Shown here: positions 12,746 to 41,899 of the stretch, piece after piece
Layout of the letters: each line of letters starts with the position of its first letter
Position numbering within the stretch: position 1 is the first letter of the stretch
Assembly: GCA_030833315.1 (NCBI GenBank)
Contig: JAURHM010000019.1
Span: forward strand, 1 to 50,899
Direction: 5' to 3'
Length of the DNA: 50,899 nucleotides
Origin: Burkholderiales bacterium
GTDB taxonomy: Bacteria > Pseudomonadota > Gammaproteobacteria > Burkholderiales > SG8-41
Made by a program: the position numbers and the translations under genes
The notes under the pieces: model-generated
What the model was told of the DNA's origin: nothing
Databases searched by the model: none
Seen by the model: only the letters and a program-made list of their open reading frames with translations

Positions 12746-13511
12746 AGCGATGGTCACGAACCTGAAGTCACTCAAGCTCTTTGGAATGGCGCAGGCAGTA
12801 GACGAGTTGGCGCAGCAAGGTGCGCCGGCCTATCAAGCGGCGCAGAATGTGCTGGGCGATCTGCTCAAAGCGGAGATGGCTGAGCGCGAGGTCCGATCAG
12901 TGGCCTACCAGATGAAGGCCGCCCGGTTCCCAACTTACCGGGATCTGGCCGGATTCGACTTCAGCCAGAGCCCGGTCAACGAAGCGCTGGTTCGCCAGTT
13001 GCACCGTTGTGAGTTCCTTGAGCAGGCCTACAACATTGTGCTAGTGGGTGGCCCGGGAACGGGCAAGACACACCTTGCCACCGCGCTGGGTGTGCAGGCG
13101 ATTGGACACCATCGCCAGCGGGTTCGCTTCTTCCCGACCATCGAACTGGTCAATGCGTTGGAGCAGGAGCAAGCCTGTGGGCGCCAAGGCCACATCGCGA
13201 TGCGATTGATGCATGCTGATCTGGTGATTCTGGACGAGCTGGGCTATCTGCCGTTCAGTCAGGCGGGAGGCGCCTTGCTGTTCCATCTGATCAGCAAGCT
13301 CTACGAGCGGACCAGTCTGGTGATTACGACTAACCTGAACTTCGCCGAGTGGACGAGCGTATTTGGTGACCCGAAGATGACCACGGCGCTGCTCGACCGG
13401 CTCACTCACCACTGCCATATCCTTGAAACCGGAAACGAGAGTTACCGCTTCAAGAACAGCTCAACACAACCCCGAAAGGAACCCCGAGCCCGAAAGATAT
13501 CCACAACCTGA
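12735..13511 (+). CDS. istB: IS21-family helper ATPase IstB
   Basis: A 258-residue DnaA/DnaC-like AAA+ ATPase. Walker A is Gly-Gly-Pro-Gly-Thr-Gly-Lys-Thr at residues 105-112, and Walker B is Leu-Val-Ile-Leu-Asp-Glu-Leu-Gly-Tyr. The arginine finger region [11 protein letters not shown] is typical of IstB. It assists IstA by choosing and remodelling target DNA. The ATG overlaps the istA end by 11 bases and has GAGAGGAA before it, which indicates translational coupling. It is full length for the family. Confidence 0.94.
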
Positions 13512-23936: not shown

Positions 23937-26900
23937 TTATTTACTGACGACCTTGCGGGCGAGGCCCCACTGCTTCACCAGCGCGTAAATTGCCGGGATT
24001 ACCGCCAGTGTCAGCACCGTCGATGAAATCATGCCGCCGACCATCGGTGCGGCGATGCGGCTCATGACTTCGGAGCCGGTGCCGCTGCCCCACAGGATGG
24101 GCAGCAGGCCGGCCATGATGGCGACCACGGTCATCATTTTCGGCCGTACGCGTTCCACAGCGCCTTCCATCACTGCCGCATAAAGATCAGCCGTACCCGG
24201 TTGGCGTCCGGCCTCGCGGCAGCGCGCTTGCGCGGCATCCCATGCATGATCCAGGTAGATCAGCATCACCACGCCGGTTTCCGCGGCGACGCCAGCCAGC
24301 GCGATGAAGCCGACGGCAACCGCGACCGACAGGTTGTAACCGAGCAGCCACATCAGCCAAACGCCGCCGACCAGCGCGAAGGGCACCGACAGCATCACGA
24401 TCAGCGTTTCGGTCAGACGTTTGAAGTTGAGGTACAGCAGCAGGAATATGCTCAGCAGCGTCACCGGAATCACCACTTTCATTTTATGGATCGCGCGTTC
24501 CATGTATTCGAACTGGCCGCTCCACGTCGCGTAATAACCTGGCGGGAATTTGACCTGCTCGTTGACTGCCTTGCGTGCATCGGCGACATAGCCACCGATA
24601 TCGCGGTCGCGGATGTCGACAAAAATGTATGCCGAGAGCAGCGCGTTTTCGGTGCGGATGCCCGGCGCGCCTTTGTTGATCGACACTTTCGCCAGTTGTC
24701 CCAGCGGAATCATCGCACCGCCCATGGTCGCCACCAGCACTTCACGCGCAATCTGCTGCGGATCGCCGCGCAGTTCACGCGGATAACGCACGGTCACGCC
24801 GAAACGTTCGCGGCCTTCGACCATGGTGGTGACCATCTCGCCGCCCAATGCGGCAGCAATGGTGTCGAGCACATCGCCCACCGCGAGACCATAACGCGCC
24901 AGTTGCGTGCGGTCCGGTTCGATGTCGAGGTAAAAGCCGCCGGTGATGCGTTCGGCGAAAGCTGACGTCGTGCCCGGCACTGCCTTGACCACAGCTTCGA
25001 TTTCACGCGCCAGCCGTTCCATTTCATTCAGGTCCTTGCCGAAGACCTTGATACCGATGGGCGTGCGGATGCCCGTCGACAGCATGTCGATGCGCGCCTT
25101 GATCGGCATGGTCCAGGAATTGGCGACGCCGGGAAACTGCAGTGCCTGGTCCAGTTCCGCTATCAGCTTGTCGGTGGTCATGCCCGGACGCCATTCGGAT
25201 TCCGGCTTGAGGTTGATGATGGTCTCGAACATTTCCGTCGGCGCCGGGTCGGTTGCGGTGTTGGCGCGCCCGGCCTTGCCGTAGACCGAAGCGACTTCGG
25301 GGAAACTCCTGATGATGCGGTTCTGCGTCTGCAGCAGTTCCGCCGCTTTGGTGATCGACATGCCCGGCAGCGAAGTCGGCATGTAGAACAGCGTGCCCTC
25401 GTTGAGCGTTGGCATGAACTCGGAGCCCAGTCGCGAGGCGGGGTACAGTGAAACCGCCATCACGATGAGTGCAATCAAGATCGTGAGTTTCTTGAAACGC
25501 ATCACCGCAGCGATCACCGGACGGTAAATCCAGATCAGGAAACGGTTCACCGGATTTTTTTCTTCGGGCAGGATTTTGCCGCGGATGAACAGCAGCATCA
25601 GCACCGGCACCAGGGTCACCGACAGCATCGCTGCACCGGCCATCGCGAAGGTCTTGGTATAGGCCAGCGGCGAGAACAGCCGGCCTTCCTGGGATTCCAG
25701 CGTAAACACCGGCAGGAAGGATACGGTGATGATCAGCAGCGAGAAAAACAGTGCGGGGCCGACTTCGCGGCAGGCGTCCATCATCGCCGCAGCACGTTCG
25801 CTGTTCGAGTGATTCGCCGGCAGGCGTTCGAGATGTTTGTGCGCGTTTTCAATCATCACAATCGCCGCGTCAATCATCGCACCGATGGCAATGGCGATGC
25901 CGCCCAGGCTCATCAGGTTGGAGTTCATACCCAGCTGGCGCATCGCGATGAAGGCGATCAATACGCCCACCGGCAGCATGAGGATGGCGACCAGCGCGCT
26001 GCGCACATGGAGCAGAAAGACGATGCATACCAGTGCGACAATGACCGATTCCTCGATCAGCGTGCGCTTCAGGGTATCAATGGCACGGTGGATCAGTTCG
26101 GAACGGTCGTAGACCGCTTCGATATGCACGCCTTCCGGCAGGCCGCTGGAAATCTCGGCGATTTTTTCCTTGATGTTGTGGATCACTTCCAGCGCGTTCT
26201 GGCCGTAACGCGCCATCACGATGCCCGATACCACTTCGCCCTCGCCGTTGAGTTCGGTCAGGCCGCGGCGTTCGTCCGGTGCCAGTTCGACGCGGCCAAC
26301 GTCACGGATCAGCACCGGCGTGCCTTTTTCGCTTTTGACGACGAGGTTTTCAATGTCGGTGGCGCCGCGCAGGTAACCCTTGCCACGTACCATGTATTCG
26401 GTCTCGGCCATCTCGACCACGCGGCCGCCGACGTCGCGGTTGGAATCTCGAATCACCTGCGCCACTTTCATCAGCGGTACGCCGTATGAAAGCAGCTTTA
26501 CCGGATCGACCGTGACCTGATAGGTCTGCACAAAGCCGCCAATGGAGGCGACCTCGGCGACACCCTGCGCCTTGGTCAACTGGTAACGCACGAACCAGTC
26601 CTGGATGGTACGCAGTTCGGCCAGCGTCTTGTCTTTGGCCAGCAATGCATATTGATAGACCCAGCCCACACCCGTGGCGTCCGGCCCGAGTTGCGGCGTG
26701 ACGCCCCGCGGCATGCGGCCGGCGGCGAAGTTCAGATATTCCAGTACCCGCGAACGCGCCCAGTAGATGTCGGTGCCATCTTCGAAAATGATGTAGACGA
26801 AAGACGCGCCGAAGAAGGAAAAGCCGCGCACGACTTTTGATTTCGGAACCGACAGCATCGCCGTGGTCAGCGGATACGTCACCTGGTCTTCGACGACCTG

Positions 26901-27074
26901 CGGCGCCTGGCCCGGATATTCCGTATAAACAATGACCTGCACGTCGGACAGGTCGGGCAGGGCATCAATCGGTGTGCGCAATACGGCAAACACGCCCCAC
27001 AGCACGATGAGCAGCGTGCCCAGCAGCACCAGAAAACGGTTGCGTCCGGACCAGTCGATGATAGCGGCAAGCAT
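23937..27074 (-). CDS. cusA: CusA-type copper/silver efflux RND pump
   Basis: This 1045-residue heavy-metal RND pump has the transmembrane-4 motif Ala-Ile-Gly-Ala-Met-Ile-Asp-Ala-Ala-Ile-Val-Met-Ile-Glu-Asn, the Cu(I)/Ag(I) signature. The three methionines that bind the metal in E. coli CusA have counterparts here in Phe-Tyr-Met-Pro-Thr-Ser-Leu-Pro-Gly-Met, Pro-Thr-Glu-Met-Phe-Glu-Thr, and Arg-Ile-Asp-Met-Leu-Ser-Thr-Gly-Ile. It sends monovalent copper or silver from the periplasm to the CusC channel using the proton gradient. An AAGGACAAGG site precedes the ATG; cusB ends 10 bases upstream. It closes the copper operon, with the deoA-like gene after it. Confidence 0.93.
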   Translation of the reverse strand: MLAAIIDWSGRNRFLVLLGTLLIVLWGVFAVLRTPIDALPDLSDVQVIVYTEYPGQAPQVVEDQVTYPLTTAMLSVPKSKVVRGFSFFGASFVYIIFEDGTDIYWARSRVLEYLNFAAGRMPRGVTPQLGPDATGVGWVYQYALLAKDKTLAELRTIQDWFVRYQLTKAQGVAEVASIGGFVQTYQVTVDPVKLLSYGVPLMKVAQVIRDSNRDVGGRVVEMAETEYMVRGKGYLRGATDIENLVVKSEKGTPVLIRDVGRVELAPDERRGLTELNGEGEVVSGIVMARYGQNALEVIHNIKEKIAEISSGLPEGVHIEAVYDRSELIHRAIDTLKRTLIEESVIVALVCIVFLLHVRSALVAILMLPVGVLIAFIAMRQLGMNSNLMSLGGIAIAIGAMIDAAIVMIENAHKHLERLPANHSNSERAAAMMDACREVGPALFFSLLIITVSFLPVFTLESQEGRLFSPLAYTKTFAMAGAAMLSVTLVPVLMLLFIRGKILPEEKNPVNRFLIWIYRPVIAAVMRFKKLTILIALIVMAVSLYPASRLGSEFMPTLNEGTLFYMPTSLPGMSITKAAELLQTQNRIIRSFPEVASVYGKAGRANTATDPAPTEMFETIINLKPESEWRPGMTTDKLIAELDQALQFPGVANSWTMPIKARIDMLSTGIRTPIGIKVFGKDLNEMERLAREIEAVVKAVPGTTSAFAERITGGFYLDIEPDRTQLARYGLAVGDVLDTIAAALGGEMVTTMVEGRERFGVTVRYPRELRGDPQQIAREVLVATMGGAMIPLGQLAKVSINKGAPGIRTENALLSAYIFVDIRDRDIGGYVADARKAVNEQVKFPPGYYATWSGQFEYMERAIHKMKVVIPVTLLSIFLLLYLNFKRLTETLIVMLSVPFALVGGVWLMWLLGYNLSVAVAVGFIALAGVAAETGVVMLIYLDHAWDAAQARCREAGRQPGTADLYAAVMEGAVERVRPKMMTVVAIMAGLLPILWGSGTGSEVMSRIAAPMVGGMISSTVLTLAVIPAIYALVKQWGLARKVVSK

Positions 27075-27084
27075 GACCTTGTCC

Positions 27085-28674
27085 TTAATGTCCGGCGTGC
27101 GGGTTCGCGGCAGCGGGAGGCGGCGCTTTGCCGGCTGCCAGCGGTTTCACGCCGGTGATCACCCATTCCCCTTGCTGGCGCTCGACGAAGTCAATCGTTA
27201 CGCGGGCTTTCGGCGGCAGGTCCTTCAACAGCGCTGAATTCGCCACCTTGAATTCCATGATCATCGCCGGCCATTTCAGGCTGGCGACCGGACCGTGATT
27301 CAGCATCACGGTGCCGGTCTTGGCATCAACATCGTCAACCGTGGCTTCCGCCTGATGTACGGCGCCGCCGGGTTTGGTCGTCTGCGATGCCGGCGTCATG
27401 CCACTGAGTGCGGCCTTCAGATTGCTTTCGGCATCGATCAGGAAGTTGGCGGCGACGACGACGAGTTCGCCGTCCTTCACGCCGCTGATGACTTCAACAT
27501 GCTGGTCGCTGCGTGCACCGGTTTTGACCTCACGCGGTTCATATCTGCCTTCGCCGCTCTGCACCAGTACGATGCGCCGCGTGCCGCTGTCGATCACTGC
27601 GGAGTTCGGTACGGTGAGCACGGCAGCCTTCGCCCCTACCGGCAGTTCGACTTCGGCAAACATGCCGGGCTTCAACAGATTGCCGGGATTGGTCAGTTCG
27701 ATACGCACCGCCACAGTACGTGTTTCAGCGCTCAGTGTCGGATAGACATAGGTCAGTGCACCGCTGAAGGTTTTGCCGGGATAGGCGTTGATGCGGATCT
27801 GCGCTTTGGCACCCGCTTTGACGAGGCCGATATCCTGCTCGAACACATCTGCAATGACCCAGATCGAAGACAGGTCGGCGATCTGGTACAGCGATTCGCC
27901 GGGCATGAAACGCATGCCTTGCAGCGCTTTTTTCTCGGTGACGATGCCGCTGACCGGTGAGCGGAAGGTCAGCGTGTGTTTGGTTTCTCCCGATGCCGCC
28001 AGCGCCTTGATCTGGTCTTCGGAAATGTCCCAGTTTTTAAGGCGCGTCAGGCTGGCTTCGGCGAGGCGTTTCATCGCGTCTTGGGATTCACTGCCGGCAT
28101 TGTTCATCGCTTGCACGCCCTGCATCGCGACGGCATATTCGCGCTGAGCCGACACCAGTTCCGGGCTGTAGAACTCGAACAGCGACTGCCCCTTGCCGAT
28201 GGCCTGGCCGGTAGCGTTGACGTGCAGGCGCTCCACATAACCTTCGAACTTCGGTGCAATGGCGTAGGTGCGTCGTTCATCCGGTTCTATGCGGCCCGCG
28301 GCCCGCACCGTGCGGTCCAGCATGCGCGGTTTTGCGGCTTCGGTACGAACGCCGAGGCGCTGCACTTTTTCCGTACTGATGGTGATCTGAGTGCTGGAGC
28401 CGGACGAACTGGAACTGCCACCTGTTTCTTCGCCTTCATAGACGGCGATGTAGTCCATGCCCATCGGGTCTTTTTTCGGCACCGGCGAGGTGTCGGGCAA
28501 ACCCATCGGGTTGCGGTAATACAGCAGTTTGCGCCCGTCTTTGGCGCCGCCAGCGCTGTTTGTTGCGGCTGCAGGCGATTCGCTGCCGGCGTTGTGCCGG
28601 CCGAGCCAGTATCCCGCGCCTGCGGTCGCCGTGGCGATGACAGCAACGGCGATAATCCCCGTGAGCGGTTTCAT
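27085..28674 (-). CDS. cusB: CusB-type adaptor with heavy-metal-binding domain and fused CusF domain
   Basis: This 529-residue periplasmic adaptor starts with an N-terminal membrane anchor or signal (residues 4-26). Next is a heavy-metal-binding domain with Tyr-Tyr-Arg-Asn-Pro-Met-Gly and Lys-Lys-Asp-Pro-Met-Gly-Met-Asp-Tyr (about residues 51-75), a Ser-rich linker, then the barrel-sandwich, helical hairpin and beta-barrel of CusB. A C-terminal CusF-like domain carries His-Gly-Pro-Val-Ala-Ser-Leu-Lys-Trp-Pro-Ala-Met-Ile-Met, keeping the Trp and two Met ligands of CusF, and the protein ends Asn-Pro-His-Ala-Gly-His. It links pump and channel and should pass Cu(I)/Ag(I) on. The gene overlaps cusC by four bases. 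The length (E. coli CusB is about 407) is explained by the fusion. Confidence 0.92.
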   Translation of the reverse strand: MKPLTGIIAVAVIATATAGAGYWLGRHNAGSESPAAATNSAGGAKDGRKLLYYRNPMGLPDTSPVPKKDPMGMDYIAVYEGEETGGSSSSSGSSTQITISTEKVQRLGVRTEAAKPRMLDRTVRAAGRIEPDERRTYAIAPKFEGYVERLHVNATGQAIGKGQSLFEFYSPELVSAQREYAVAMQGVQAMNNAGSESQDAMKRLAEASLTRLKNWDISEDQIKALAASGETKHTLTFRSPVSGIVTEKKALQGMRFMPGESLYQIADLSSIWVIADVFEQDIGLVKAGAKAQIRINAYPGKTFSGALTYVYPTLSAETRTVAVRIELTNPGNLLKPGMFAEVELPVGAKAAVLTVPNSAVIDSGTRRIVLVQSGEGRYEPREVKTGARSDQHVEVISGVKDGELVVVAANFLIDAESNLKAALSGMTPASQTTKPGGAVHQAEATVDDVDAKTGTVMLNHGPVASLKWPAMIMEFKVANSALLKDLPPKARVTIDFVERQQGEWVITGVKPLAAGKAPPPAAANPHAGH

Positions 28675-29948
28675 AAGTCTTCCCCTATCAGTCGTTCGAC
28701 TTCGGCGAGGCGCACCTGCTGCTCGGAGCGCGCCTTGATGATGTCCTGTCGGGCAATGCGGATCTGGCGCTGCGCATCGAGCAGCGTCGCGAAGTCGACC
28801 TTGCCCGATTCATAACCGGCAAGCGCGGCTTTGAAAGTGAGTTCGGCCTGCGGCAGCAGGCTGCCCTGCGCCAGGGTCTCCATGCGTCGCGAGGCATCGA
28901 TGGCTGCGAGTTGTGATGAGAGTTCGGCGAGCAACTGGTTGGCGGTGGCATCCTTGCGCGCACGGGCGACGTCAATCATCTTGTCGGCTTCGCGTTCCTG
29001 ACTGCGCCGGCTGCCCTGTTGCAGGGGGATGTTCAGTTCGAGCATCAGTTCCCACTCGTTGACGCGATTGCGCGTCTGGATCGGCGACACGCCAACGGTG
29101 AAATCCGGGTAGCGGTTGCGGTAGGCGAGGTCGCGGTTTTTTTCCGCGGCGCGCATGCGCGCATCAGCCGCAAAAATCTGCGGATTTTTTTCCCGCGCGC
29201 GCATTTCCAGCGCTTCATGATCGAGGCGGGCCGGCGACGGCAGCGGACGCAGGCGTTCGGGATGCGCCAGAGGCGCATGCGCCGGACGCGCCAGCAGGGC
29301 ATTGAGGTTGGCGCGGGCCTGGTGACTCTCGGTTTCCATCTGGATCAGTTCACCGAGCATCGCCGTGCGTTCGACCTGCACGCGGATGGCATCCTGCTGC
29401 GGCACCAGGCCGCCGGCATAACGTGCCTGGGTGATGCCTTCGATGCGGCCGATCAGATCAAGCACTTCGCGGGCCAGTCCGATCAGCCGCGTCACCGCGT
29501 AATACTGCGCATAGGTGGTCTTGATGCGCGCCGCCTGATCCGTCCACGAACCGCTTGCGCGCCCCTGGGCGGCGGCCGCTTCGGCTTCCGCCGCCTCGCG
29601 TTTGAGGTCGCGCTTGCCCCAGAACGGCAACGCCTGCATCAGCGTGTATTTGGTACTGCCGACGCGGCCGGGCAGGATGCTGGTGCCGCCGTCCATGCCG
29701 AAGTTGGTGATGTTCTGAAGTTCGGTGCGCAGCACCGGGTCGGGCAGTGCACCCGCAGGACCGACACGCTCGCTGGCCGCTTCCGCCTCGTAACGCATGG
29801 CAGCATATTCGGGGTTTCTTTCGCGGGCATAGGCGAGCAGGCTCTGCACGTCCGCGCCCGGCAGCGTTTCCTGCGCCTGCACCGTGAAGCAGCAAAAGGC
29901 CATTACGGCAGCAGTCAGCCAACACCGGAATTTCGTGAATGGTTTCAT
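28671..29948 (-). CDS. cusC: CusC-like TolC-family outer-membrane protein
   Basis: A 425-residue TolC-family protein with a cleavable signal (hydrophobic core, cleavage after Val-Gln-Ala near residue 25). Its paired helical repeats include Asn-Pro-Glu-Tyr-Ala, Gln-Ala-Leu-Pro-Phe-Trp-Gly-Lys-Arg and a second-half Asn-Arg-Tyr-Pro-Asp-Phe-Thr-Val-Gly. There is no lipobox cysteine, unlike E. coli CusC. It should form the outer-membrane exit for CusBA. An AAGGAGAG site precedes the ATG, and its stop overlaps the cusB start by four bases. The 124 bases between it and cusF hold no gene I can see. Confidence 0.88.
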   Translation of the reverse strand: MKPFTKFRCWLTAAVMAFCCFTVQAQETLPGADVQSLLAYARERNPEYAAMRYEAEAASERVGPAGALPDPVLRTELQNITNFGMDGGTSILPGRVGSTKYTLMQALPFWGKRDLKREAAEAEAAAAQGRASGSWTDQAARIKTTYAQYYAVTRLIGLAREVLDLIGRIEGITQARYAGGLVPQQDAIRVQVERTAMLGELIQMETESHQARANLNALLARPAHAPLAHPERLRPLPSPARLDHEALEMRAREKNPQIFAADARMRAAEKNRDLAYRNRYPDFTVGVSPIQTRNRVNEWELMLELNIPLQQGSRRSQEREADKMIDVARARKDATANQLLAELSSQLAAIDASRRMETLAQGSLLPQAELTFKAALAGYESGKVDFATLLDAQRQIRIARQDIIKARSEQQVRLAEVERLIGEDL

Positions 29949-30072: not shown

Positions 30073-30417
30073 TTATTTGACATTTTCGATGCGGGTGACG
30101 ATATAGGCGCCGCCGGATTGCTCAGCGGCGAATTTCACCTTGTCGCCGGTTTTGGCGCGGTCAAGCAATGCCGGATCCTTGACCTGGAACACCATGGTCA
30201 TTGGCGGCATGTTGAGATTGGTGATCGGACCGTGGCGGATGGTGATTTTCTGTGCGTCGCGATCGACTTTTCGGATTTCGCCATCGCTCAGTGCGGACGC
30301 GGCAGCGGGTGCGGCCTGATGTGAGGCATGTGACGAGTGGTCGGCAGCATTTTGCTGGGCCAATGCAGGCGCTGTCATTGCAGAGGTAATCATTACCAGT
30401 GTCAGTGCGTATTTCAT
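30073..30417 (-). CDS. cusF: CusF-like periplasmic copper/silver chaperone
   Basis: A 114-residue exported protein: signal peptide to Ala-Leu-Ala at residue 20, a His-rich linker (Asp-His-Ser-Ser-His-Ala-Ser-His), and a CusF OB-fold domain. The metal site reads His62-Gly-Pro-Ile-Thr-Asn-Leu-Asn-Met70-Pro-Pro-Met73-Thr-Met75. E. coli CusF uses one His, two Met and a Trp that caps Cu(I); here the Trp position is Met, whereas the domain fused to CusB keeps Trp. It should carry Cu(I)/Ag(I) to CusB. AAGGAG precedes the ATG; the DUF411 gene ends 23 bases upstream. Confidence 0.88.
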   Translation of the reverse strand: MKYALTLVMITSAMTAPALAQQNAADHSSHASHQAAPAAASALSDGEIRKVDRDAQKITIRHGPITNLNMPPMTMVFQVKDPALLDRAKTGDKVKFAAEQSGGAYIVTRIENVK

Positions 30418-30440: not shown

Positions 30441-30887
30441 TCAGCGCCCGTAGCGGGCATAAACGGAATGACGGCCGCTCTTGCCCACCAGCAGCACGTC
30501 GTATGGTTGGGGCTTGGCGGATTCCATGCCGGGTGATCCCTGCGGCATTCCCGGCACGGCAAGTCCGGTGGCCACCGGTTTTTCAGCCATCAGGCGTTTG
30601 ATTTCACGTGCCGGCACATGGCCTTCGATGGCATAACCGCCGATCTCCGCGGTGTGGCAGCCGCCCAGCGCTTCGGGAATGCCCAGCCGCTTGCGCGTGG
30701 CTGCTGTGTCTTCGACTGCGACGGTCTTCACACGGAAGCCGTTGGCGCGCAGATGGTCCATCCACGCGCCGCAGCAGCCTCAAGTCGGGTTCAGGTATAC
30801 CGTCGCTAGCGTAGGCTCCGCCGCCATGGCGGTGCCTGATAGCATCATCGCGGCTATTGCCGTCAGGAATTTGCGTCGGTCATTCAT
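30441..30887 (-). CDS. DUF411 exported metal-binding protein with in-frame TGA at a motif cysteine (candidate selenoprotein)
   Basis: Read through one TGA (30780-30782), this is a full-length DUF411 protein of 148 residues. It starts with a twin-arginine-like signal (Arg-Arg-Lys-Phe-Leu, hydrophobic core, Ala-Met-Ala-Ala), then Val-Tyr-Leu-Asn-Pro-Thr-TGA-Gly-Cys-Cys-Gly. DUF411 proteins normally have Cys-Gly-Cys-Cys there, so TGA occupies residue 36 exactly in place of the first Cys. The rest is intact, including Gly-Gly-Cys77-His and the family end. The SD (AAAGGTGA) overlaps the stop of the cupredoxin gene, which indicates coupling. A strong stem-loop follows the TGA at SECIS-like spacing. 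DUF411 proteins occur in copper/silver loci and presumably bind the metal in the periplasm. The alternative is a nonsense mutation, leaving at most a 106-residue internal start at 30761 without a signal. Confidence 0.75.
30744..30770 (-). promoter_or_regulatory. SECIS-like stem-loop downstream of the in-frame TGA
   Basis: On the mRNA strand the 27 bases form a 12-pair stem (6 GC pairs, two G-U wobbles, 4 pairs) with a GAC loop. 21 bases lie between the TGA and the loop. Bacterial SECIS elements need a hairpin with an apical loop about 16-37 bases after UGA and a G among the first loop bases; this one fits. The wobble pairs exist only in the minus-strand RNA. It also encodes conserved residues, so chance formation is possible. 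Confidence 0.5.
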
Positions 30888-30891
30888 GTCA

Positions 30892-31392
30892 TCACCTTTG
30901 CGTTACGTTGATCTTGCCGACCATGCCGGCTTCGAAATGACCCGGCAGCAGGCAGCCGAAGTGGAACTCACCACCTTTACTGAACTGCCAGACGATAGTT
31001 TCAGTTTTTCCGGGTGACACATGCGCCATATAGGGTTCGTCATGTTCCATGTTCGGGAATTTTTTCATCAGTTCGGCATGTTCCTTCAGTTCGGGCAGGG
31101 TGCCCAGCACGAATTCGTGCATGGCCTTGCCGGAATTGGTGACAATGAACTTTACGGTTTCGCCCTGTTTGATGGCCAGTGTCGCCGGTGTGAAACGCAT
31201 TTTGTCGCTCATGTCGACTTTGATTGTTCGCCCGACTTTTTTCGGATCACCGGCTTTGCCGAATGATTTTTCTTCGCTGATTTGCGCGGCTGGGTTCGCG
31301 GTTTTTTTCCCGTGTGTGTCGCCATGTGCCAACACCGGGGTTGTGGCCAGAGTCGCAGTCATGCAGACTGCGGTGAATAATGTTGGATGCAT
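30892..31392 (-). CDS. Cupredoxin (plastocyanin/azurin-like copper protein)
   Basis: This 166-residue exported blue-copper-type protein has a signal peptide ending Val-Leu-Ala near residue 22 and a His-containing linker. The cupredoxin domain has type-1 copper ligands His92 (Ala-Met-His-Glu-Phe), Cys147, His152 and Met157 (Phe-Gly-Cys-Leu-Leu-Pro-Gly-His-Phe-Glu-Ala-Gly-Met). It probably carries electrons or copper in the periplasm, with the multicopper oxidase encoded just upstream as a likely partner. ATG 31390-31392 has a GAGG site and begins the signal; a longer in-frame start adds a basic, non-signal stretch and overlaps the oxidase gene. Its stop is part of the ribosome-binding site of the DUF411 gene. 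Confidence 0.86.
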   Translation of the reverse strand: MHPTLFTAVCMTATLATTPVLAHGDTHGKKTANPAAQISEEKSFGKAGDPKKVGRTIKVDMSDKMRFTPATLAIKQGETVKFIVTNSGKAMHEFVLGTLPELKEHAELMKKFPNMEHDEPYMAHVSPGKTETIVWQFSKGGEFHFGCLLPGHFEAGMVGKINVTQR

Positions 31393-31432
31393 AATGACCT
31401 CAATAAAGTTTAATATAATCAAATACTTGTAG

Positions 31433-32809
31433 TTAGTGTTTGTGTCCGGCTGCCGGTTTGTGAGCTTGCAATAACTGTTCGTGCGCGCCCGTCGCTGCAG
31501 GTGCCGCGCGGTTAGCCGCCGGCGCTGTGCCGGTCCACTCGTGTGCGACCGTGCCCGGAGGATGTTTGAACCAGCCCGGATCCTTGTAATCATTGCGCGC
31601 GAGACCGTCGCGCACCTTGACCACGGTGAACATGCCGCCCATTTCCAGCGGACCGAATGGCCCGCGGCCGGTCATCATCGGCAGCGTGTTGTCGGGCAGC
31701 GGCATTTCCATTTCTCCCATGTCCGCCATTCCGCGTTCACCCATGACCATGTAGTCCGGCACCAGCTTCATGATTTTTTCGGCGACGCCACGGTGATCAA
31801 CGCCGATCATCGTCGGCACGCCGTGGCCCATGGCATTCATCGTGTGGTGCGACTTGTGGCAATGGATGGCCCAGTCGCCCGGCGCTTCCGCAGTGAACTC
31901 GAAGGCGCGCATCTGGCCGACAGCAACGTCGACCGTCACTTCCGGCCAGCGCGCGGATTTCGGTACCCACCCGCCGTCGGTGCAGGTGACTTCAAAGTCG
32001 TAACCGTGCATGTGTACCGGATGATTGGTCATCGTCAGGTTGCCGAAGCGGATCCTTACCTTGTCGTTGGTGCGCACCACGAACGGATCAATCCCGGGGA
32101 AAGCCCTTGAGTTCCAGCACCACAGGTTGAAATCGAGCATGGTGTTGACGTTCGGAGTCGCCGCTCCCGGTTTGATGTCGAAAGCGTTGAGCAGGAACAC
32201 AAAGTCACGGTCGACTTTCATGAAGTTCGGGTTCTTCGGGTGCACCACAAAAAATCCCATCATGCCCATCGCCATCTGCGTCATTTCGTCAGCATGCGGG
32301 TGATACATGAAGGTGCCGGATTTCTTCATTTCGAATTCATAGACGAAGGTCTTACCGACCGGAATCTGAGGCTGCGTCAGCCCGCCAACGCCGTCCATGC
32401 CGTTGGGCAGCAGGATGCCGTGCCAGTGGATGGTGGTGTGTTCCGGCAGCTTGTTGGTGACGAAGATCCGCACCTTGTCGCCTTCGACGCATTCGATGGT
32501 CGGGCCCGGCGACTGGCCGTTGTAACCCCACAGATTGGCGGTCATACCGGGCGCGATCTGACGGCGCACCGGTTCAGCGATCAGGTGAAATTCCTTCCAG
32601 CCGTTGTTCATGCGCCAGGGCAGGGTCCAGCCGTTCAGTGTCACGACCGGGTTGTAAGGGCGACCGCTGGCCGGCATCAATGGCGGCTGCGTGTCGGGTT
32701 TTGATTGCATCGGCGCTTCGGGTACTGCGCCTTGCGCGGCGCGGCTGACCGTCGCGGCGCCAAGCAGTGCGGCGCCGGAGGCGCGTAGGAAATTGCGTCG
32801 GTTATTCAT
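31433..32809 (-). CDS. Multicopper oxidase, Tat-exported
   Basis: A 458-residue multicopper oxidase with a twin-arginine signal (Arg-Arg-Asn-Phe-Leu-Arg at residues 4-9). The copper motifs are complete: His-Trp-His-Gly at 128-131, His170-Pro-His172, His263-Pro-Val-His-Met-His268, and His316-Cys-His-x3-His322-x4-Met327 with the type-1 Cys317. The family oxidises Cu(I) or other small substrates in the periplasm and reduces oxygen to water. There is no long Met-rich insert like that of CueO. The C-terminus after residue 425 is an Ala-rich tail ending His-Lys-Pro-Ala-Ala-Gly-His-Lys-His, possibly metal-binding. It sits in the copper operon 15 bases after the TolC-like gene. Confidence 0.9.
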   Translation of the reverse strand: MNNRRNFLRASGAALLGAATVSRAAQGAVPEAPMQSKPDTQPPLMPASGRPYNPVVTLNGWTLPWRMNNGWKEFHLIAEPVRRQIAPGMTANLWGYNGQSPGPTIECVEGDKVRIFVTNKLPEHTTIHWHGILLPNGMDGVGGLTQPQIPVGKTFVYEFEMKKSGTFMYHPHADEMTQMAMGMMGFFVVHPKNPNFMKVDRDFVFLLNAFDIKPGAATPNVNTMLDFNLWCWNSRAFPGIDPFVVRTNDKVRIRFGNLTMTNHPVHMHGYDFEVTCTDGGWVPKSARWPEVTVDVAVGQMRAFEFTAEAPGDWAIHCHKSHHTMNAMGHGVPTMIGVDHRGVAEKIMKLVPDYMVMGERGMADMGEMEMPLPDNTLPMMTGRGPFGPLEMGGMFTVVKVRDGLARNDYKDPGWFKHPPGTVAHEWTGTAPAANRAAPAATGAHEQLLQAHKPAAGHKH

Positions 32810-32824
32810 GTCTTGATCCGTTCC

Positions 32825-34237
32825 TTAGTGGCCGGCTTCCGCGGCGGGCGCGGCGGCGCGCAGGCTGCCGCCCGTTGCCGAAATGGCACCCGGCGACTTG
32901 CCGTTGATCGTGAACTGAAGGCTGGTGTCGGCAAGCCAGAAGTCGCGTTGCGCTTCGATGGCGTTGATGACCGCGCCGACCTGCTGGCGGGATTCCGCGA
33001 GCAGTTCAAATACGCTCATCAGCATGCCGTTGTAGCGCAGCAGCGTTTCTTCGCTGATGCGTGTGCGCAACGGTACTATTTCGTCGCGGTAGTGTCTGGC
33101 CAGGTCGTAGCTGCTGCGCCATGCGCCGTAGGCTTCTCGCACTTCCGAGCGGGCGCGTATGGCGAGGTCTGCCGCGTGGTTGACCGCCTGCCGGTGGGTG
33201 TTTTCCGCCCGAGCCAGTTTTGCCGAGCCGGAATCGAAGATCGGCAGCCGCAGTTCGATTTCGTAACCGGTTTTGCGCGGTTGGCCGCTTTCGCTGTTGC
33301 GGATGTATTTTGCTTCGAGCACGCTGAAATACCCGGTGGCCTTGGTCAGTCCCAGCGAGTTGGCGATGTTTTCGGCATGACGTGCCGCTTCCTGCACATC
33401 AAGCCGCTGCTGCATGGCTTGTCTTTCGATGTCGGCCATGTCGCGCAGCGATGGCGGAAGATCGGGCAGGCGCTCCGGCAGATTGAATGCAATGTCGTTA
33501 CCCCACAGCCCGAGAAGCCGGATCAGCCGCTCGCGTTCAGCCAGCGCCCCCTGGCGGGCGCGTGCCAGTTGTGCGGCGGCATCGGCATAAAACGCCTGTT
33601 CCCGCGCCTGATCGAGTTTGCTGAAATTGCCGGCCTTGACCATGCGCCTTGCCAGTTCGGATGCTGCCTCGGCGGCGCTTTTGACCTGTTCGGCATAGGC
33701 CGCTGATTGTTGTGCAGCGACTGCGCTGATCCATGCGCGACGGGTGTCAGCAGCGACCTGCAGAATGCTGGCTGCCATGCGGCTCTGTGCGAGTTCGAAA
33801 CGCTCGCGTTCCAGTTGCGTTCGGAGCGGCATCGTCAGTAAACCCAGCAAGTCGAAAATGAAGGCGCGTTCATATTCGATATCATCCGCGCGATGCGTAC
33901 GGCCAAACGAGAAGCCCGGATTGCGCAGGCGTCCGGCCTGCACGAGGTCGGATTCGGCGATGCCCAGTTCGGCGTATGCGGACTGCAGTCCGCGGTTGTT
34001 GAGCAGTGCAATCTGTACCGCGTTGTCGGCGGTCAGCGGTTGCGCCAGCAGGGCACGTACCTGATCGCCAGCTCGCGTGGCGTCATCTTTATTTTTGATC
34101 CATGGCGCCTGCTGTGTGATTCCGCGTTTGCTGAGGGCGTCATTAACCTGACGCGTGCCGCCGTCTTCGGAAAAGGTGGCGCAGCCGCCAAGCAGGAATA
34201 CGACGAAGGCGGCCATGAAAGATTGGGCGTTATTCAT
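32825..34237 (-). CDS. TolC-family outer-membrane lipoprotein of the copper locus
   Basis: A 470-residue TolC-family protein with a lipobox Leu-Leu-Gly-Gly-Cys at residue 19 and two helical-barrel repeats (for example Asn-Asn-Arg-Gly-Leu-Gln-Ser-Ala-Tyr-Ala-Glu-Leu-Gly-Ile and Ala-Asn-Ser-Leu-Gly-Leu-Thr). It is a second TolC-like channel in the same operon as CusC and has no dedicated pump next to it; it may serve copper export or be paired with the multicopper oxidase, as in similar loci. Its start overlaps the stop of the upstream small gene by four bases. The C-terminal tail is Ala-rich and ends Glu-Ala-Gly-His. Confidence 0.83.
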   Translation of the reverse strand: MNNAQSFMAAFVVFLLGGCATFSEDGGTRQVNDALSKRGITQQAPWIKNKDDATRAGDQVRALLAQPLTADNAVQIALLNNRGLQSAYAELGIAESDLVQAGRLRNPGFSFGRTHRADDIEYERAFIFDLLGLLTMPLRTQLERERFELAQSRMAASILQVAADTRRAWISAVAAQQSAAYAEQVKSAAEAASELARRMVKAGNFSKLDQAREQAFYADAAAQLARARQGALAERERLIRLLGLWGNDIAFNLPERLPDLPPSLRDMADIERQAMQQRLDVQEAARHAENIANSLGLTKATGYFSVLEAKYIRNSESGQPRKTGYEIELRLPIFDSGSAKLARAENTHRQAVNHAADLAIRARSEVREAYGAWRSSYDLARHYRDEIVPLRTRISEETLLRYNGMLMSVFELLAESRQQVGAVINAIEAQRDFWLADTSLQFTINGKSPGAISATGGSLRAAAPAAEAGH

Positions 34238-37384: not shown

Positions 37385-38575
37385 TCAGTGCGCGTCTGCC
37401 GGTGCACGATGGTCGGCGAGGTTGAACAGCCAGTTGCCCGCGCCGTACAGCATGAATACGATGCCGAAGCCCGCCGGGATCAACAGCCATTCCGTGAAGG
37501 ACGGGTTGTATTCCACGTAACCTGCCCAATAACCTTTAAACAGCGGTACTTCCTGCCCCATGATCAGCAGGTGCAGGCGTGCGGCAAAAATGCCGACCAT
37601 GAACAGCAGTGCCGAGATCATCTGGATTGTCACGTTGGCGCGCCGTTCCCGGCTGCTCATCAATGCCAGCGGGATGATGAAGCCTACCCAGACCTCGATA
37701 TGGAACATGACGGATCCTAGAGACCTCCAGTGTGCTTCCATACCCTCGAAATTGCTCCACAGGCCGGTGACGATCTGACCGAAGCGGGTCACCACAACGG
37801 CCAGCAGTGTGACGAAGAAAAGCCGCGGCAGTACGTCGTCGAACAGCTTGCGGACATTTTCCGGCGTGCCATTGACCCGGCGCACCAGGCTGGTGAAAAA
37901 GACGATGAATGCGACCGCCGTCATGAATCCGGTCAGGATGAAATACATCGGCATTACGGGGCTGTACCACGCCGGACGCATCGCCATCATGCCGAATGCA
38001 AGGCCAAGAGTACCGGAGGCGAAGATGCAGATCACGAAGGACCCGACTGAGATCAGATGCGTGCGTTTGCTGTGCCATTCGCCGGTATGCAGCAGGTAGA
38101 ACTTGATGCAAAGCAGGGCCAGGTCAATCGAATAGAAATTACCCATCCACCACATCGGCGACTTGTACTGCGCGGATATCGGTATCGCCCAGAGCAGCCT
38201 GAACGGGTTGCCCAATTCCAGTGCCAGCAGGGTGAAGCCGGCGACCAGCGTGATGATCGACAGCCAGATGCAGCGTTTTGCTACCGGGTAGAAAGTCTTC
38301 AGGCCGAAAACCGTGTCCAGTGAAGAGATGATTGACAGACCCGACGAGGCAAGCAGGAAAAACATGTAAAAGGCGATCGGCGCACCCCACGGAAAATCGC
38401 TGGAGGTGTTGTAAGCCGCATGGCCCTTTGTAAACAGCATGAACAGAACGATGGACAGGCTGACGCCGGCAACAACTGCGCCGCCGATCATCATCAGGGC
38501 TGACATGCCGTCGGGTTTGGAATGCAGGTCAAACAGCGGCCGGCCGTCGGGGGTTCGCAGGGCAAGAATGTTCAT
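37385..38575 (-). CDS. NrfD/PsrC-family membrane subunit of a molybdopterin oxidoreductase
   Basis: This 396-residue integral membrane protein has about nine or ten hydrophobic helices and belongs to the NrfD/PsrC polysulfide-reductase family. Recognisable parts are Tyr-Met-Phe-Phe-Leu-Leu-Ala-Ser-Ser-Gly in the second helix, Trp-Ala-Ile-Pro-Ile-Ser...Ser-Pro-Met-Trp-Trp-Met-Gly, and Glu-Val-Trp-Val-Gly-Phe-Ile-Ile-Pro near the fourth-last helix. It should anchor the complex and exchange electrons with the quinone pool. GGGAG precedes the ATG; it lies 12 bases after the iron-sulfur subunit gene. Confidence 0.87.
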   Translation of the reverse strand: MNILALRTPDGRPLFDLHSKPDGMSALMMIGGAVVAGVSLSIVLFMLFTKGHAAYNTSSDFPWGAPIAFYMFFLLASSGLSIISSLDTVFGLKTFYPVAKRCIWLSIITLVAGFTLLALELGNPFRLLWAIPISAQYKSPMWWMGNFYSIDLALLCIKFYLLHTGEWHSKRTHLISVGSFVICIFASGTLGLAFGMMAMRPAWYSPVMPMYFILTGFMTAVAFIVFFTSLVRRVNGTPENVRKLFDDVLPRLFFVTLLAVVVTRFGQIVTGLWSNFEGMEAHWRSLGSVMFHIEVWVGFIIPLALMSSRERRANVTIQMISALLFMVGIFAARLHLLIMGQEVPLFKGYWAGYVEYNPSFTEWLLIPAGFGIVFMLYGAGNWLFNLADHRAPADAH

Positions 38576-38587
38576 GATGGTTCTCCC

Positions 38588-39349
38588 TTAGACTTTTCTC
38601 GTGCGGGTCGACCGCGTTTCCGGAATGGATGCCGCTTCGCCAGCCAGGTAATAGACCTGCGGGCGGTTGCCCGTGTGGTCCTGCAAGCGGACGCCGCATT
38701 TTTCGGCGATCAGTTGCCTGACGTAGCTTTTCGGATTGTCGAGGTCGCCGAAGTAACGCGCAGTGGGTGCGCAGGTGACCACGCAGGCCGGTGTGAACTC
38801 CCGTGTTTTGGGATCGTTCGGATCGAGATCCGGGGTTCCCTGGGGCGCTTTGCTGACACGGTGGTAGCAGAACGTGCATTTGGAGACCACGTTCCTGGGT
38901 TGTATCCCGACGCCGTGCTTCGGGTCATTCATGTGTTCGGGCATGGCCCACGGCGGATCCCAGACCTTGCCGTCCTTGCTTGGCCACACCTCGCGCACGT
39001 CCGGTAGCGTCTTCTGTTTCTCCTCGGCGTAGAACCTCACGCCATAGGGGCAGGCGATCATGCAGTATTTGCAACCGATGCAGAGATCCCAGTTGATCAG
39101 GACGAAACCGTCCTTGTCCTTGTAGGTCGCCTTGGTCGGGCAGACATCCACGCATGACGCATTCTCGCAATGCATGCACGGTCTCGGCAGCCAGGTCAGC
39201 TTGCCGCTGGGATATTCCCCCTCGTTGTAGAACAGGACATCCTGCCAGTTCTCCCCGGGCAGTCTTGAGTTCTCCATCGAGCAGGCTGTGGTGCAGGCCT
39301 GACAGCCAGTGCACTTTTCCAGATCAATTACCATTCCCCATCGGGCCAT
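38588..39349 (-). CDS. Four-cluster 4Fe-4S electron-transfer subunit (DmsB/PsrB type)
   Basis: A 253-residue ferredoxin subunit with four Cys clusters in the DmsB/PsrB order. They are Cys-Thr-Gly-Cys-Gln-Ala-Cys near residue 15, Cys-Met-His-Cys-Glu-Asn-Ala-Ser-Cys-Val-Asp-Val-Cys-Pro near 58, Cys-Ile-Gly-Cys-Lys-Tyr-Cys-Met-Ile-Ala-Cys-Pro near 90, and a split Cys-Thr-Phe-Cys ... Cys-Val-Val-Thr-Cys pair. It has no signal peptide and should travel with the Tat-exported catalytic subunit. It carries electrons between the NrfD subunit and the molybdenum site. AGGAG precedes the ATG; it is 39 bases after the catalytic gene. Confidence 0.92.
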   Translation of the reverse strand: MARWGMVIDLEKCTGCQACTTACSMENSRLPGENWQDVLFYNEGEYPSGKLTWLPRPCMHCENASCVDVCPTKATYKDKDGFVLINWDLCIGCKYCMIACPYGVRFYAEEKQKTLPDVREVWPSKDGKVWDPPWAMPEHMNDPKHGVGIQPRNVVSKCTFCYHRVSKAPQGTPDLDPNDPKTREFTPACVVTCAPTARYFGDLDNPKSYVRQLIAEKCGVRLQDHTGNRPQVYYLAGEAASIPETRSTRTRKV

Positions 39350-39388
39350 GGCTATTCTCCTTTTTCCATTCGGTGCATATGTTGCGGA

Positions 39389-41878
39389 TTAAGCTTTTTC
39401 AACCTTTACCGTTACCGTGTGTACCGCTGCAGCGTTCGAGATCGGTTCGGAAACGTTCGGAATGATTTCGTTGGTATTGCCTTCCATGCGTCCCTTGGCC
39501 CAGCGACCATGGGCCCAGTGGCCGAAACCGAAGGGCAACGTGACGGTATCCGGGCGGCAGGCCGGAAACAGGTGTGCCCGCGCATAAATCGTACCGAGAT
39601 CGTTATGGATCTTTACCCGGTCACCGTTGCGGATGCCGCGTTTTGCTGCGGTCTCCGGATGGATTTCCAGGAACAGTTCGTTACGGCCGCCGGAGGTTGG
39701 TTGGTACAGTGAAATGGCGACCGGGAGGTTTGCAGTCCGTCCTTCGCCATGCATCGGGGTTTTTGTGGCGATGAAGTGCAGGTCGCCGCCACCGGTGTAC
39801 TTCGCCTTGATCCATTGCGGAAAACCGACTTTCTCCTTTGGGATGCCCAGCGCGTTGGCGATGAACTCGTCGTAATGCTCCAGATAACTCGACTTCAGTT
39901 CGAACTTGCCCGACTCGGTCTTCAACAGTTTCTTTTTGACGTCCTCGGCGCTCATCGGCTTGCGATAGTCTTCACCGTCCCACTCGTAGAATTCCCCGGC
40001 GATTTGACGGTAGAGGTAAGGTTTCTTGTACCAGACGCCTTTTTCAACCCATTTTTCGTAACTGTCGACGCCATTCGATCCGGGATTGGCCTCAAAGCCC
40101 TTGGCAATGGCTTTGAGTACGTTCTCCACGTTGCCGACTTTCTGGTAATACTCGCTGGTCGGTCCCTTGATGCGCTTGCCGATCTCGATCAGGGTGTCAC
40201 CGAAGTGTTTGGTGTCATAAAGCGGTTGCACCGCAGGCACCCGGATGTTGGTCAATGGCCAACCTTCGAACGGATATGTCGGCGTGTCCTGAAAGCGTTC
40301 CAGGAAGGTGTGGTCGGGAAGCACGAGGTCGGAAAATACCGAGGTTTCGCTCGGGAACGGCGATGTCTCGATGACGAACACTTTTTTCAGCGCTTCCTCC
40401 CATTCTTTAGAGTTGGGCGCGCTGTAAATCGGATTCGTGATGTAAAACATGATCGTGTCGAGCGTGTACGGCTTGCCTTCGATAATGCTCTTGGCGATGC
40501 CCTGGATGTTGTTCGAGGCCAGAGGCAGCTCTTTGCTTTTTACACGGTCGATCCGCGGCATTTTCCTTGCGGCGGCTTCCTTGGCAGCATCATCGACGAA
40601 GTCATCCGAGCTTACTGGCAGCTTGGCGTAAGGCACGCCCATCTGGTTGGCGAGACCGCCGACTGCATACATGGCGCCGACCAAGGCGTTCAGCACATGC
40701 ACGGCCATGCCGCTGTACAAGCCGTTGGTATGCAGTGTCACGCCCCGTTCGAAGATCGCCATCGCCGGGCGAGTCGAGCCGAATTCCCGGGCAATTCTGG
40801 TGATGTCGCGCTCGGAAACTGTGGTGATTTCGGCCGCCCATTTCGGCGTCCGGTCTTTCAGTTCCGCGTTCCACCACTCAATCAGGCCAAGAGTCCATTT
40901 TTCCTTGAACGATTTCGGATCCAGTTCTTCGCCGGTCTTGAACAGATTGATGCTGTCGACGAAGTCACCGACGAATTTCCGGTCCCACAACCCTTCTGTA
41001 AGAATTACGTGGGCGATGGCCAGTGCCAGTGCACCGTCGGTGCCGGGCTTGACCAGCATCAGGTGGTCTGCGGCTGCGCCGGTTGGGGTCACCCGCACAT
41101 CAGCAACCGCAACTTTTGTTTTTGGGGCCTTGGTTCGGATATGCCCCCACACCTGCATGTTGTTGTTGTAGGGGCGGTACGCTTCCAGGAATGCGGCACC
41201 AAAAATCAGCAGGTAATTGGTGTTCTTGTAGTCGTACGAGTTGTAGCTGTAGTTGCCGTCGATTGCGGATTTGGCTTTTTTGCTGGTGTCGGCGCACATC
41301 GACGAATGGCCCAGCGTGGAATTCGGCGTGCCATAGAGCTTGCCGAAGTTGCCGAGCAGTCCGACGTCGGTGCTACCCCAGCCGCGGCCGTTAACGATCG
41401 CAAAGCGGTGTTGTTCCCCCTTGTCTCGCAGGCCGTTCAGGCGCGTGGCGACGGTGTTGAGCGCCTCCTCCCAGCTGATGGCCTGCCACTTTGGGTCCTC
41501 GTTGCGGCCTTTGTTGGGATTTGTTCGTTTCATCGGACCCTTGAAACGGTCCGGGTCGTAAAGAATGTAGGCGCCAAGATGGCCCTTGGGGCACAGTTTG
41601 CCGTTTGAAATCGGGTGATCCGGCGAACCGTAGATCGCGTGGACCTTGCCGTTGGTGACATAGACGTCAATGCCACAGCGTGCAGGGCACTGGTGGCAAA
41701 CGTTTTTGGTGATCTTGGTTTCAGGAACCGGACCGTCCGGACGACTTCCCAGTCCCGTCGCATCGGTACTCAGAGTGGAAACCACCGCGCCGCCTCCAAT
41801 TGCGGCAGAACCTGCAACACCTGCCGCAGCCGAGGTTTTAAGAAATCCCCGCCGGTTCATCTGTTCAAAGTCACCCAC
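39389..41878 (-). CDS. Molybdopterin oxidoreductase catalytic subunit (DMSO-reductase family), Tat-exported
   Basis: An 829-residue catalytic subunit of the DMSO-reductase family. The twin-arginine signal reads Asn-Arg-Arg-Gly-Phe-Leu-Lys at residues 8-14. A 4Fe-4S site is formed by Cys61, Cys64, Cys68 and Cys96, and the probable molybdenum ligand is Cys195 in His-Ser-Ser-Met-Cys-Ala-Asp. The C-terminal dinucleotide-binding domain carries Asn-Gly-Asp-Arg-Val-Lys-Ile-His-Asn. Start GTG 41876-41878 has a perfect AGGAGG eight bases upstream. The Cys ligand and NrfD partner fit the polysulfide/thiosulfate/tetrathionate/sulfite/arsenate group, but the substrate cannot be assigned from the motifs. 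An FNR-type site upstream of the operon argues for a reductase used without oxygen. Confidence 0.9.
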   Translation of the reverse strand: MGDFEQMNRRGFLKTSAAAGVAGSAAIGGGAVVSTLSTDATGLGSRPDGPVPETKITKNVCHQCPARCGIDVYVTNGKVHAIYGSPDHPISNGKLCPKGHLGAYILYDPDRFKGPMKRTNPNKGRNEDPKWQAISWEEALNTVATRLNGLRDKGEQHRFAIVNGRGWGSTDVGLLGNFGKLYGTPNSTLGHSSMCADTSKKAKSAIDGNYSYNSYDYKNTNYLLIFGAAFLEAYRPYNNNMQVWGHIRTKAPKTKVAVADVRVTPTGAAADHLMLVKPGTDGALALAIAHVILTEGLWDRKFVGDFVDSINLFKTGEELDPKSFKEKWTLGLIEWWNAELKDRTPKWAAEITTVSERDITRIAREFGSTRPAMAIFERGVTLHTNGLYSGMAVHVLNALVGAMYAVGGLANQMGVPYAKLPVSSDDFVDDAAKEAAARKMPRIDRVKSKELPLASNNIQGIAKSIIEGKPYTLDTIMFYITNPIYSAPNSKEWEEALKKVFVIETSPFPSETSVFSDLVLPDHTFLERFQDTPTYPFEGWPLTNIRVPAVQPLYDTKHFGDTLIEIGKRIKGPTSEYYQKVGNVENVLKAIAKGFEANPGSNGVDSYEKWVEKGVWYKKPYLYRQIAGEFYEWDGEDYRKPMSAEDVKKKLLKTESGKFELKSSYLEHYDEFIANALGIPKEKVGFPQWIKAKYTGGGDLHFIATKTPMHGEGRTANLPVAISLYQPTSGGRNELFLEIHPETAAKRGIRNGDRVKIHNDLGTIYARAHLFPACRPDTVTLPFGFGHWAHGRWAKGRMEGNTNEIIPNVSEPISNAAAVHTVTVKVEKA

Positions 41879-41899
41879 GATCAGTACCTCCTGTGCAAT

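Follow-up and report, generated by a model that had tools for sequence, protein, structure and literature searches.

The window analysed here, a stretch of 50,899 nucleotides from a Burkholderiales bacterium, holds a gene of the DUF411 family, copG, whose reading frame is interrupted by one TGA. Is this codon the mark of a broken gene, an error in the assembly, or a site of selenocysteine (Sec) insertion? The original prediction proposed a candidate selenoprotein and kept a nonsense mutation as a serious alternative. We examined the gene, its homologs in other genomes, the Sec genes that accompany them, and the RNA downstream of the codon. Together these support the candidate, and on the sequence evidence the window gene very probably encodes a selenoprotein form of CopG.

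The copG gene and its product

Direct reading of the frame (30887-30441, minus strand) puts the ATG at 30887 and the stop codon, itself a TGA, at 30443-30441. The sole in-frame TGA is codon 36 (30782-30780, minus strand), which replaces the first Cys of the Cys-Gly-Cys-Cys motif (Thr-TGA-Gly-Cys-Cys-Gly), and a ribosome-binding site, AAAGG, lies at 30895..30899 on the same strand. The coordinates, codon and ribosome-binding site that had been predicted are thus confirmed, as is the intactness of the gene apart from this one codon. The predicted Sec-containing coding sequence (30441..30887, minus strand) specifies 148 residues with Sec at 36; read with codon 36 as U, the product runs from MNDRRKFL through NPT-U-GCCGAW at the codon to YARYGR. 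An open reading frame of the standard kind begins at this locus only after the TGA. The cupredoxin gene upstream also stops on TGA (30894-30892), four bases before the copG ATG, so TGA is still a stop in the host genome, and genome-wide reassignment of the codon was ruled out on this ground.

With Cys put at the TGA, the product matches PF04214 (DUF411) at 89 bits against a cut-off of 27, the model spanning residues 75-121 only, with the Sec motif outside it. A sequence search of the PDB gave a single distinct match, CopG (6WIS, also 6WJE), with an E value of 6e-31. These entries are titled copper resistance protein CopG and presumably come from Pseudomonas aeruginosa. An AlphaFold model with Cys at 36 has a pLDDT of 89.5, and the five best matches to it in a structure search are all CopG; for 6WIS_A the TM score is 0.91 by target length and 0.77 by query length, with an rmsd of 1.5. 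The two proteins have 46% identity over 124 columns and share the CxCC region and a C-terminal GMPxGSPGM, but the first motif position is Cys in 6WIS/6WJE and Sec in the window protein. The DUF411 assignment of the original prediction therefore holds; the solved CopG structure, like the spread of the TGA form described below, is an addition to it.

Conservation of the TGA codon and the Sec genes

One stop in an otherwise open frame has the look of a recent lesion, and the window gene could then be a fresh pseudogene or make a truncated product of 35 residues. Decay is indeed known in the copG family: one DUF411 copy (L185, G032:C243) has lost the motif, contains an in-frame TAA and is frame-shifted, and so is truly degenerate. 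Against a nonsense mutation stands the state of the other homologs. Among the window's genome and its relatives, 71 of 149 genomes have a copG homolog, and 70 of the 82 homolog places were read; the 12 left out are four full matches without stops (G077, G098, G105 and G144) and eight fragments or weak matches. In the 69 homologs that align over codon 36 (all those read save L185) the codon is TGA in 45, TGC in 19 and TGT in 5, with no other codon found. Frame damage elsewhere in the gene had been named as a sign that would speak for a lesion, but 17 of 18 homologs from the same genus keep the TGA without such damage, and the other one (L023) has TGC. A sample of the Acidobacteriota, the phylum of one record titled Acidobacteria, gave a match in 32 of 297 genomes; the 30 loci read comprise 12 with TGA, 16 with TGC and 2 with TGT. 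Neither TAA nor TAG occurs at codon 36 in the 99 loci from these two protein searches that align over it.

The sequence beyond the TGA is also under selection as protein. Downstream of the codon, dN/dS is 0.17 (mean dN 0.095, dS 0.56; 66 pairs among 12 of the 17 same-genus TGA sequences), which is not expected of a truncated gene; upstream of it, over 25 codons, the same 12 sequences give a dN of 0.39 and a dS of 1.18. Purifying selection downstream and the restriction of the codon to TGA, TGC or TGT lead us to reject a nonsense mutation, against which the full Sec machinery of the host genome (see below) counts as well; it retains a vanishingly small probability.

Other TGA-containing members of the family had been called for, and besides those just described a scan of named species genomes with a pattern for the TGA motif gave at least 118 loci. 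The matches listed divide into 93 DUF411 genes and 25 that arose by chance, and a wide score gap separates the former (at least 41 bits) from the latter (at most 18). By record title the TGA-CopG loci, at least 93 in number, include 28 from Pseudomonadota, 21 from Acidobacteriota, 10 from Gemmatimonadota and 9 from Myxococcota; among the matches listed, nine further phyla are named in titles, and five loci have no phylum name. One record counted as Actinomycetota (L144, G205, titled Acidimicrobiia) falls within the Acidobacteriota sample and clusters with Acidobacteriota on the tree, which brings the spread to about 12 phyla, and other records may be misbinned. Two metagenome-assembled genomes have Bordetella parapertussis as their title yet fall with the window's family; the record titles of such genomes are unreliable. 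The matches listed also include TGA-CopG genes of the isolates Helicobacter brantae, H. cholecystus and Parendozoicomonas callyspongiae. A sequencing or assembly error that turned TGC into TGA would have to recur in all these separate assemblies of many species, isolates included, so that base-calling error is effectively excluded and is the least probable of the explanations considered. It is of note that one contig (G050:C120) carries both a TGA and a Cys DUF411 gene (L166 and L201), about 9.5 kb apart.

The absence of Sec insertion genes had been put forward as grounds for abandoning the selenoprotein reading. In fact the host genome (3.1 Mb, 98% complete) has the full set: on one contig selA (571 bits) is immediately followed by selB (423 bits), and a tRNA-Sec with anticodon TCA (75.9 bits) comes about 1.6 kb beyond selB; selD (414 bits; G000:C51:34571-35500, L206) is on another. 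The selD gene has an in-frame TGA of its own, in GGGUGCK, and so is the Sec form of SelD. This genome thus has a second gene with an in-frame TGA, here at the position of a catalytic Cys, but SelD is a selenophosphate synthetase and a selenoprotein already known.

Does the TGA form go with the Sec genes in other organisms? For the window's relatives, selB exceeds its cut-off in 41 of 43 genomes with a TGA-CopG gene vs 7 of the 22 Cys-only genomes read (Fisher p 8e-8), a contrast that is mixed with kinship in that all 43 TGA genomes belong to one family and 20 of the 22 Cys-only genomes lie outside it. Completeness is 84% and 80% for the two TGA genomes without selB over the cut-off, and tRNA-Sec is present in one of them and selA in the other. 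In the Acidobacteriota selB is present in 12 of 12 TGA genomes vs 12 of 18 Cys genomes (one-sided p 0.03). Because the sequences are related, the p-values given here and below overstate independence. From the pattern scan, 68 of the 93 listed loci were tested for selB (25 with betaproteobacterial titles, many of them repeating the relatives' genomes, were omitted), and 59 of the 68 TGA-CopG genomes have it (42 of 50 and 17 of 18); nine of the 12 Acidobacteriota TGA genomes are also among the 68. Five of the nine genomes without selB have a tRNA-Sec over the cut-off (51.8 to 75.6 bits), two have selA over the cut-off, and one has a selA fragment below it. At the thresholds used selB, tRNA-Sec and selA are all absent from one genome, a Gemmatimonadota record titled as a chromosome (G187, locus L111); this exception may reflect an incomplete assembly or a divergent Sec system. 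In 14 control genomes the tRNA-Sec cut-off was reached in five, and so is not fully specific, and selB was found in two. Genomes with chance pattern matches have selB in 11 of 25 cases.

A further possibility is that a suppressor tRNA, or near-cognate decoding, places Cys, Trp or some other residue at the UGA. Cysteine tRNAs reading UGA occur in some bacteria, and with aligned residues that are always Cys or UGA, insertion of Cys would keep the motif too. However, the host has a tRNA-Sec with the matching anticodon and a Sec-type selD, the TGA form tracks selB across genomes, and the neighboring cupredoxin gene stops on TGA. The RNA behind the codon, considered next, also speaks against this explanation, to which we assign a very low probability.

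RNA constraint behind the codon and Sec/Cys exchange

Folding, covariation and published criteria together point to a SECIS-like hairpin at 30744..30770 (minus strand), with a 12-bp stem and a 3-nt apical loop, GAC, at 30758-30756. The loop starts 21 nt after the UGA, outer pairs reach about 30734-30779, and the segment has a folding energy of -28.7 kcal/mol over 51 nt. A recent survey of prokaryotic selenoproteins gives as criteria for a bacterial SECIS element (bSECIS) a loop of 3-9 nt, a stem of 4-16 bp, a G in the first two loop bases, a distance of 16-37 nt from the UGA and a minimum free energy of at most -7.5 kcal/mol (PMC13188914), and the window hairpin has all of these properties. 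The same properties are nonetheless shared by 93 of 117 TGA genes and by 25 of 42 Cys genes, and when TGA genes are shuffled synonymously 385 of 585 shuffles still have them; the criteria hardly discriminate between the three, and we give them little weight. An Rfam scan of the window at gathering scores gave no match.

More telling are comparisons that allow for the protein. Relative to synonymous shuffles, the folding z averages -1.50 in TGA genes (n = 117) and -0.51 in Cys genes (n = 42); it is -2.10 in the window's family (n = 40) and -1.19 elsewhere (n = 74), and for a sample of TGA genes it averages near zero in windows further downstream. In Acidobacteriota three non-redundant TGA genes (z -0.26 to -1.2) are not distinct in folding from 18 Cys genes. 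Synonymous differences are also unevenly spread: in the 12 same-genus TGA sequences, at codons with conserved amino acids, they amount to 0.0 at +1..+4, 0.09 at +5..+14 and 0.15 at +15..+24 after the TGA, and then to 0.28-0.54. Such suppression of synonymous change right behind the TGA indicates a constraint on the bases besides that on the protein.

Covariation in the stem was scored in 63 dereplicated TGA sequences. The score is 0.187 vs 0.121 +/- 0.008 for shuffled sequences, a value reached by 0 of 500 shuffles, and when the stem is slid along the alignment the score is at most 0.136. The number of cells paired and the number of cells changed on both sides also exceed those of all shuffles. 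The tool's own note names the numbers of changed pairs and of pair types as the measures least prone to false positives; these are no better than in shuffles (301 and 125 of 500 shuffles, respectively, reach them), and RNAalifold returned an empty consensus structure for the 63-sequence TGA alignment. No covariation measure rises above shuffles in the 42 Cys sequences (score 0.100 vs 0.107). In the clearest pair, one partner is the synonymous third base of a His (or Tyr) codon; the other is the opening base of the codon two places upstream, which is mostly Val or Ile/Met. In the 114 of 117 TGA genes usable here the pair is G-C in 50, A-T in 41, G-T wobble in 16 and A-C in 7 (odds ratio 18, p 9e-11), and after dereplication 47 of 60 are concordant (p 1e-4; 60 of 63 usable). 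Cys genes lack this association: 26 of 40 are concordant, with an odds ratio of 1.8 and p 0.46 (40 of 42 usable). There is thus an RNA-level constraint at the place of a SECIS element beyond that imposed by the protein, with three of the five covariation measures in favor and two neutral. This constraint, and the absence of the covariation from Cys genes, count against read-through by a tRNA other than tRNA-Sec.

Sec and Cys have changed places repeatedly in the evolution of the family. A tree of 155 proteins (113 Sec and 42 Cys) requires at least 13 Sec/Cys changes, of which five are forced by well-supported branches; this tree was built on a short alignment, with a bootstrap that had not converged and many forks left undecided. 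The window's clade has 42 Sec proteins and a single Cys one. This is L023, from a sibling species (G003), which has TGC at the Sec codon, is nested among TGA sequences and retains the hairpin sequence nearly unchanged; here Cys has apparently replaced Sec again, and recently. Since a sibling has plain Cys, Sec is not indispensable. A loss of the Sec system in G003 was considered and set aside: matches to selB and selA are absent from the assembly, which is 74% complete, yet its tRNA-Sec scores 75.9 bits.

Copper and silver genes and the possible role of Sec

The gene had been placed in a copper/silver operon, and its neighbors bear this out. All are on the minus strand. Directly upstream is a cupredoxin or plastocyanin-type copper protein (30892..31593, PF00127; an open reading frame whose true start is probably internal), and beyond it are a multicopper oxidase (31433..32809; PF07732, PF07731) and an outer-membrane efflux protein (32825..34237, PF02321). 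Directly downstream is a CusF-like periplasmic metal-binding protein (30073..30417, PF11604), followed by a CusC-like outer-membrane efflux protein (28671..29948, PF02321), a CusB-like membrane-fusion protein whose single chain ends in a CusF domain (27085..28674; PF16576, PF11604) and a CusA-like RND efflux pump (23937..27074, PF00873). Elsewhere in the window, at 37385-43096, a molybdopterin oxidoreductase with a Tat signal, 4Fe-4S proteins and NrfD seemingly make up a membrane redox module next to the copper genes, and an IS21-type transposase pair (istA/istB-like) is found at 11222-13511.

Is this setting general? In TGA loci of at least 3 kb, many of them short, CusF is a neighbor in 19 of 101, a cupredoxin in 17 of 101 and a multicopper oxidase in 17 of 101. 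By Pfam, just one of 20 open reading frames flanking distant Sec-CopG loci is a copper protein (a multicopper oxidase, at L165), and the rest are unrelated or unknown. A copper operon is thus not common to most of the distant Sec forms sampled. In Helicobacter brantae (L075, ~426) and H. cholecystus (L117, ~6975) the TGA-CopG gene adjoins purM, and both genomes have selB; these genes are AT-rich, with the motif unchanged. A link between copG and selD in Helicobacter was discarded, as the neighbor is of AIR-synthase type by Pfam and purM by NCBIfam. The twin-arginine-like signal that had been noted is present in the window gene, but among 42 loci examined, 41 from the window's family and one from another, just 21 (the window gene included) have the RRxF pattern upstream of codon 36.

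What might Sec do in this protein? According to a published account, CopG-like proteins have a cluster site made up of CxCC and two Met, for which a tetranuclear copper cluster is described; they have a part in copper resistance in the absence of oxygen and are proposed to oxidize Cu(I) and to deliver copper to CueO and similar proteins (PMC7558416). In an alignment of 25 sequences, positions 36, 38 and 39, Cys77, Met114 and Met121 are invariant, for position 36 partly by construction because Sec was entered as Cys. As far as sequence can tell, this pattern fits the cluster site, and the Met residues are putative ligands.

Our proposal is that SelB and tRNA-Sec would decode the UGA at codon 36 as Sec, assisted by the hairpin directly behind the codon. 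The product would have the thioredoxin-like fold of CopG, in which the CxCC motif carries the four-copper cluster, so that U36-G-C-C39 may be at once a UxxC, the common redox motif of selenoproteins, and part of the cluster-binding site. The protein would be exported, here probably by the Tat route, and would act in the periplasm beside the multicopper oxidase, cupredoxin, CusF and CusCBA-type proteins, where it may bind Cu(I) or Ag(I), shift the oxidation state of copper, or both, before oxidation by the multicopper oxidase or export. A selenolate is softer and more acidic than a thiolate; in place of the thiolate it might bind Cu(I) or Ag(I) more tightly and resist irreversible oxidation. 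We regard a direct role of Sec-CopG in copper or silver handling as fairly probable, and on balance favor the view that Sec takes part in it as ligand, redox residue or both.

The main rival concerns function and not decoding: Sec could serve thiol/disulfide redox chemistry of the UxxC kind, or protection against peroxide, without binding copper or silver. U-G-C-C does put Sec first in a CxxC-type motif on a thioredoxin-like fold, the near absence of copper proteins around the distant Sec-CopG genes sampled agrees with such a role, and most uncharacterized selenoproteins are likely to be redox proteins according to PMC13188914. The same source describes UxxC selenoproteins of thioredoxin fold (Trx, Grx, DsbG-like and UGC-type TlpA), which resemble the window protein in having Sec N-terminal in a CxxC-like motif and a thioredoxin-like fold but lack the third thiol of UGCC. 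With Cys at 36 the window protein scores 14-17 bits against glutaredoxin-like NCBIfam models, far under their cut-offs, and no model in the NCBIfam scan reached its cut-off. Against a pure redox role stand the invariance of Cys38, Cys39, Cys77, Met114 and Met121 in the 25 sequences, as a cluster site of CxCC and two Met would require (PMC7558416), and the position of the window gene inside the copper cluster. It is a real possibility, though the less probable one, and we prefer a role of Sec-CopG in copper or silver handling.

The original prediction knew of no described Sec-containing DUF411 protein, and our searches agree. DUF411, PF04214 and CopG are all absent from Table 1 of the 2026 catalogue, which covers 119 families and subfamilies of selenoproteins in prokaryotes (PMC13188914), and searches of open-access article text gave no mention of a selenocysteine DUF411 or CopG protein; another paper or database entry could exist. 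The metal-handling selenoproteins given in that table's source (CopZ-family (2Fe-2S) proteins, the SO_0444 Cu/Zn efflux transporter, an E1-E2 cation ATPase, MerT-like proteins and SaoC) likewise have Sec at or near a Cys motif but belong to other families, none of them CopG/DUF411 (PMC13188914). Since Sec in metal-handling proteins is already known, Sec-CopG is not a categorically new system.

Sec-CopG does add a family to the bacterial selenoproteome, with record titles from about 12 phyla among the matches listed, and ordinary gene finding would either truncate its genes or place their starts internally. Sec and Cys have replaced each other repeatedly at a single codon, and the benefit of selenium in metal handling can thus be studied by comparing naturally occurring forms. 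If the proposed role is true, the protein would be a natural case of a selenolate acting as ligand to a biological copper cluster, in a family whose Cys homolog has a crystal structure. More tentatively, at somewhat less than even chances, Sec-CopG may be a widespread uncatalogued family in which Sec is a natural ligand of a periplasmic multinuclear Cu(I)/Ag(I) cluster, and through which selenium supply would be linked to defense against copper and silver in many environmental bacteria.
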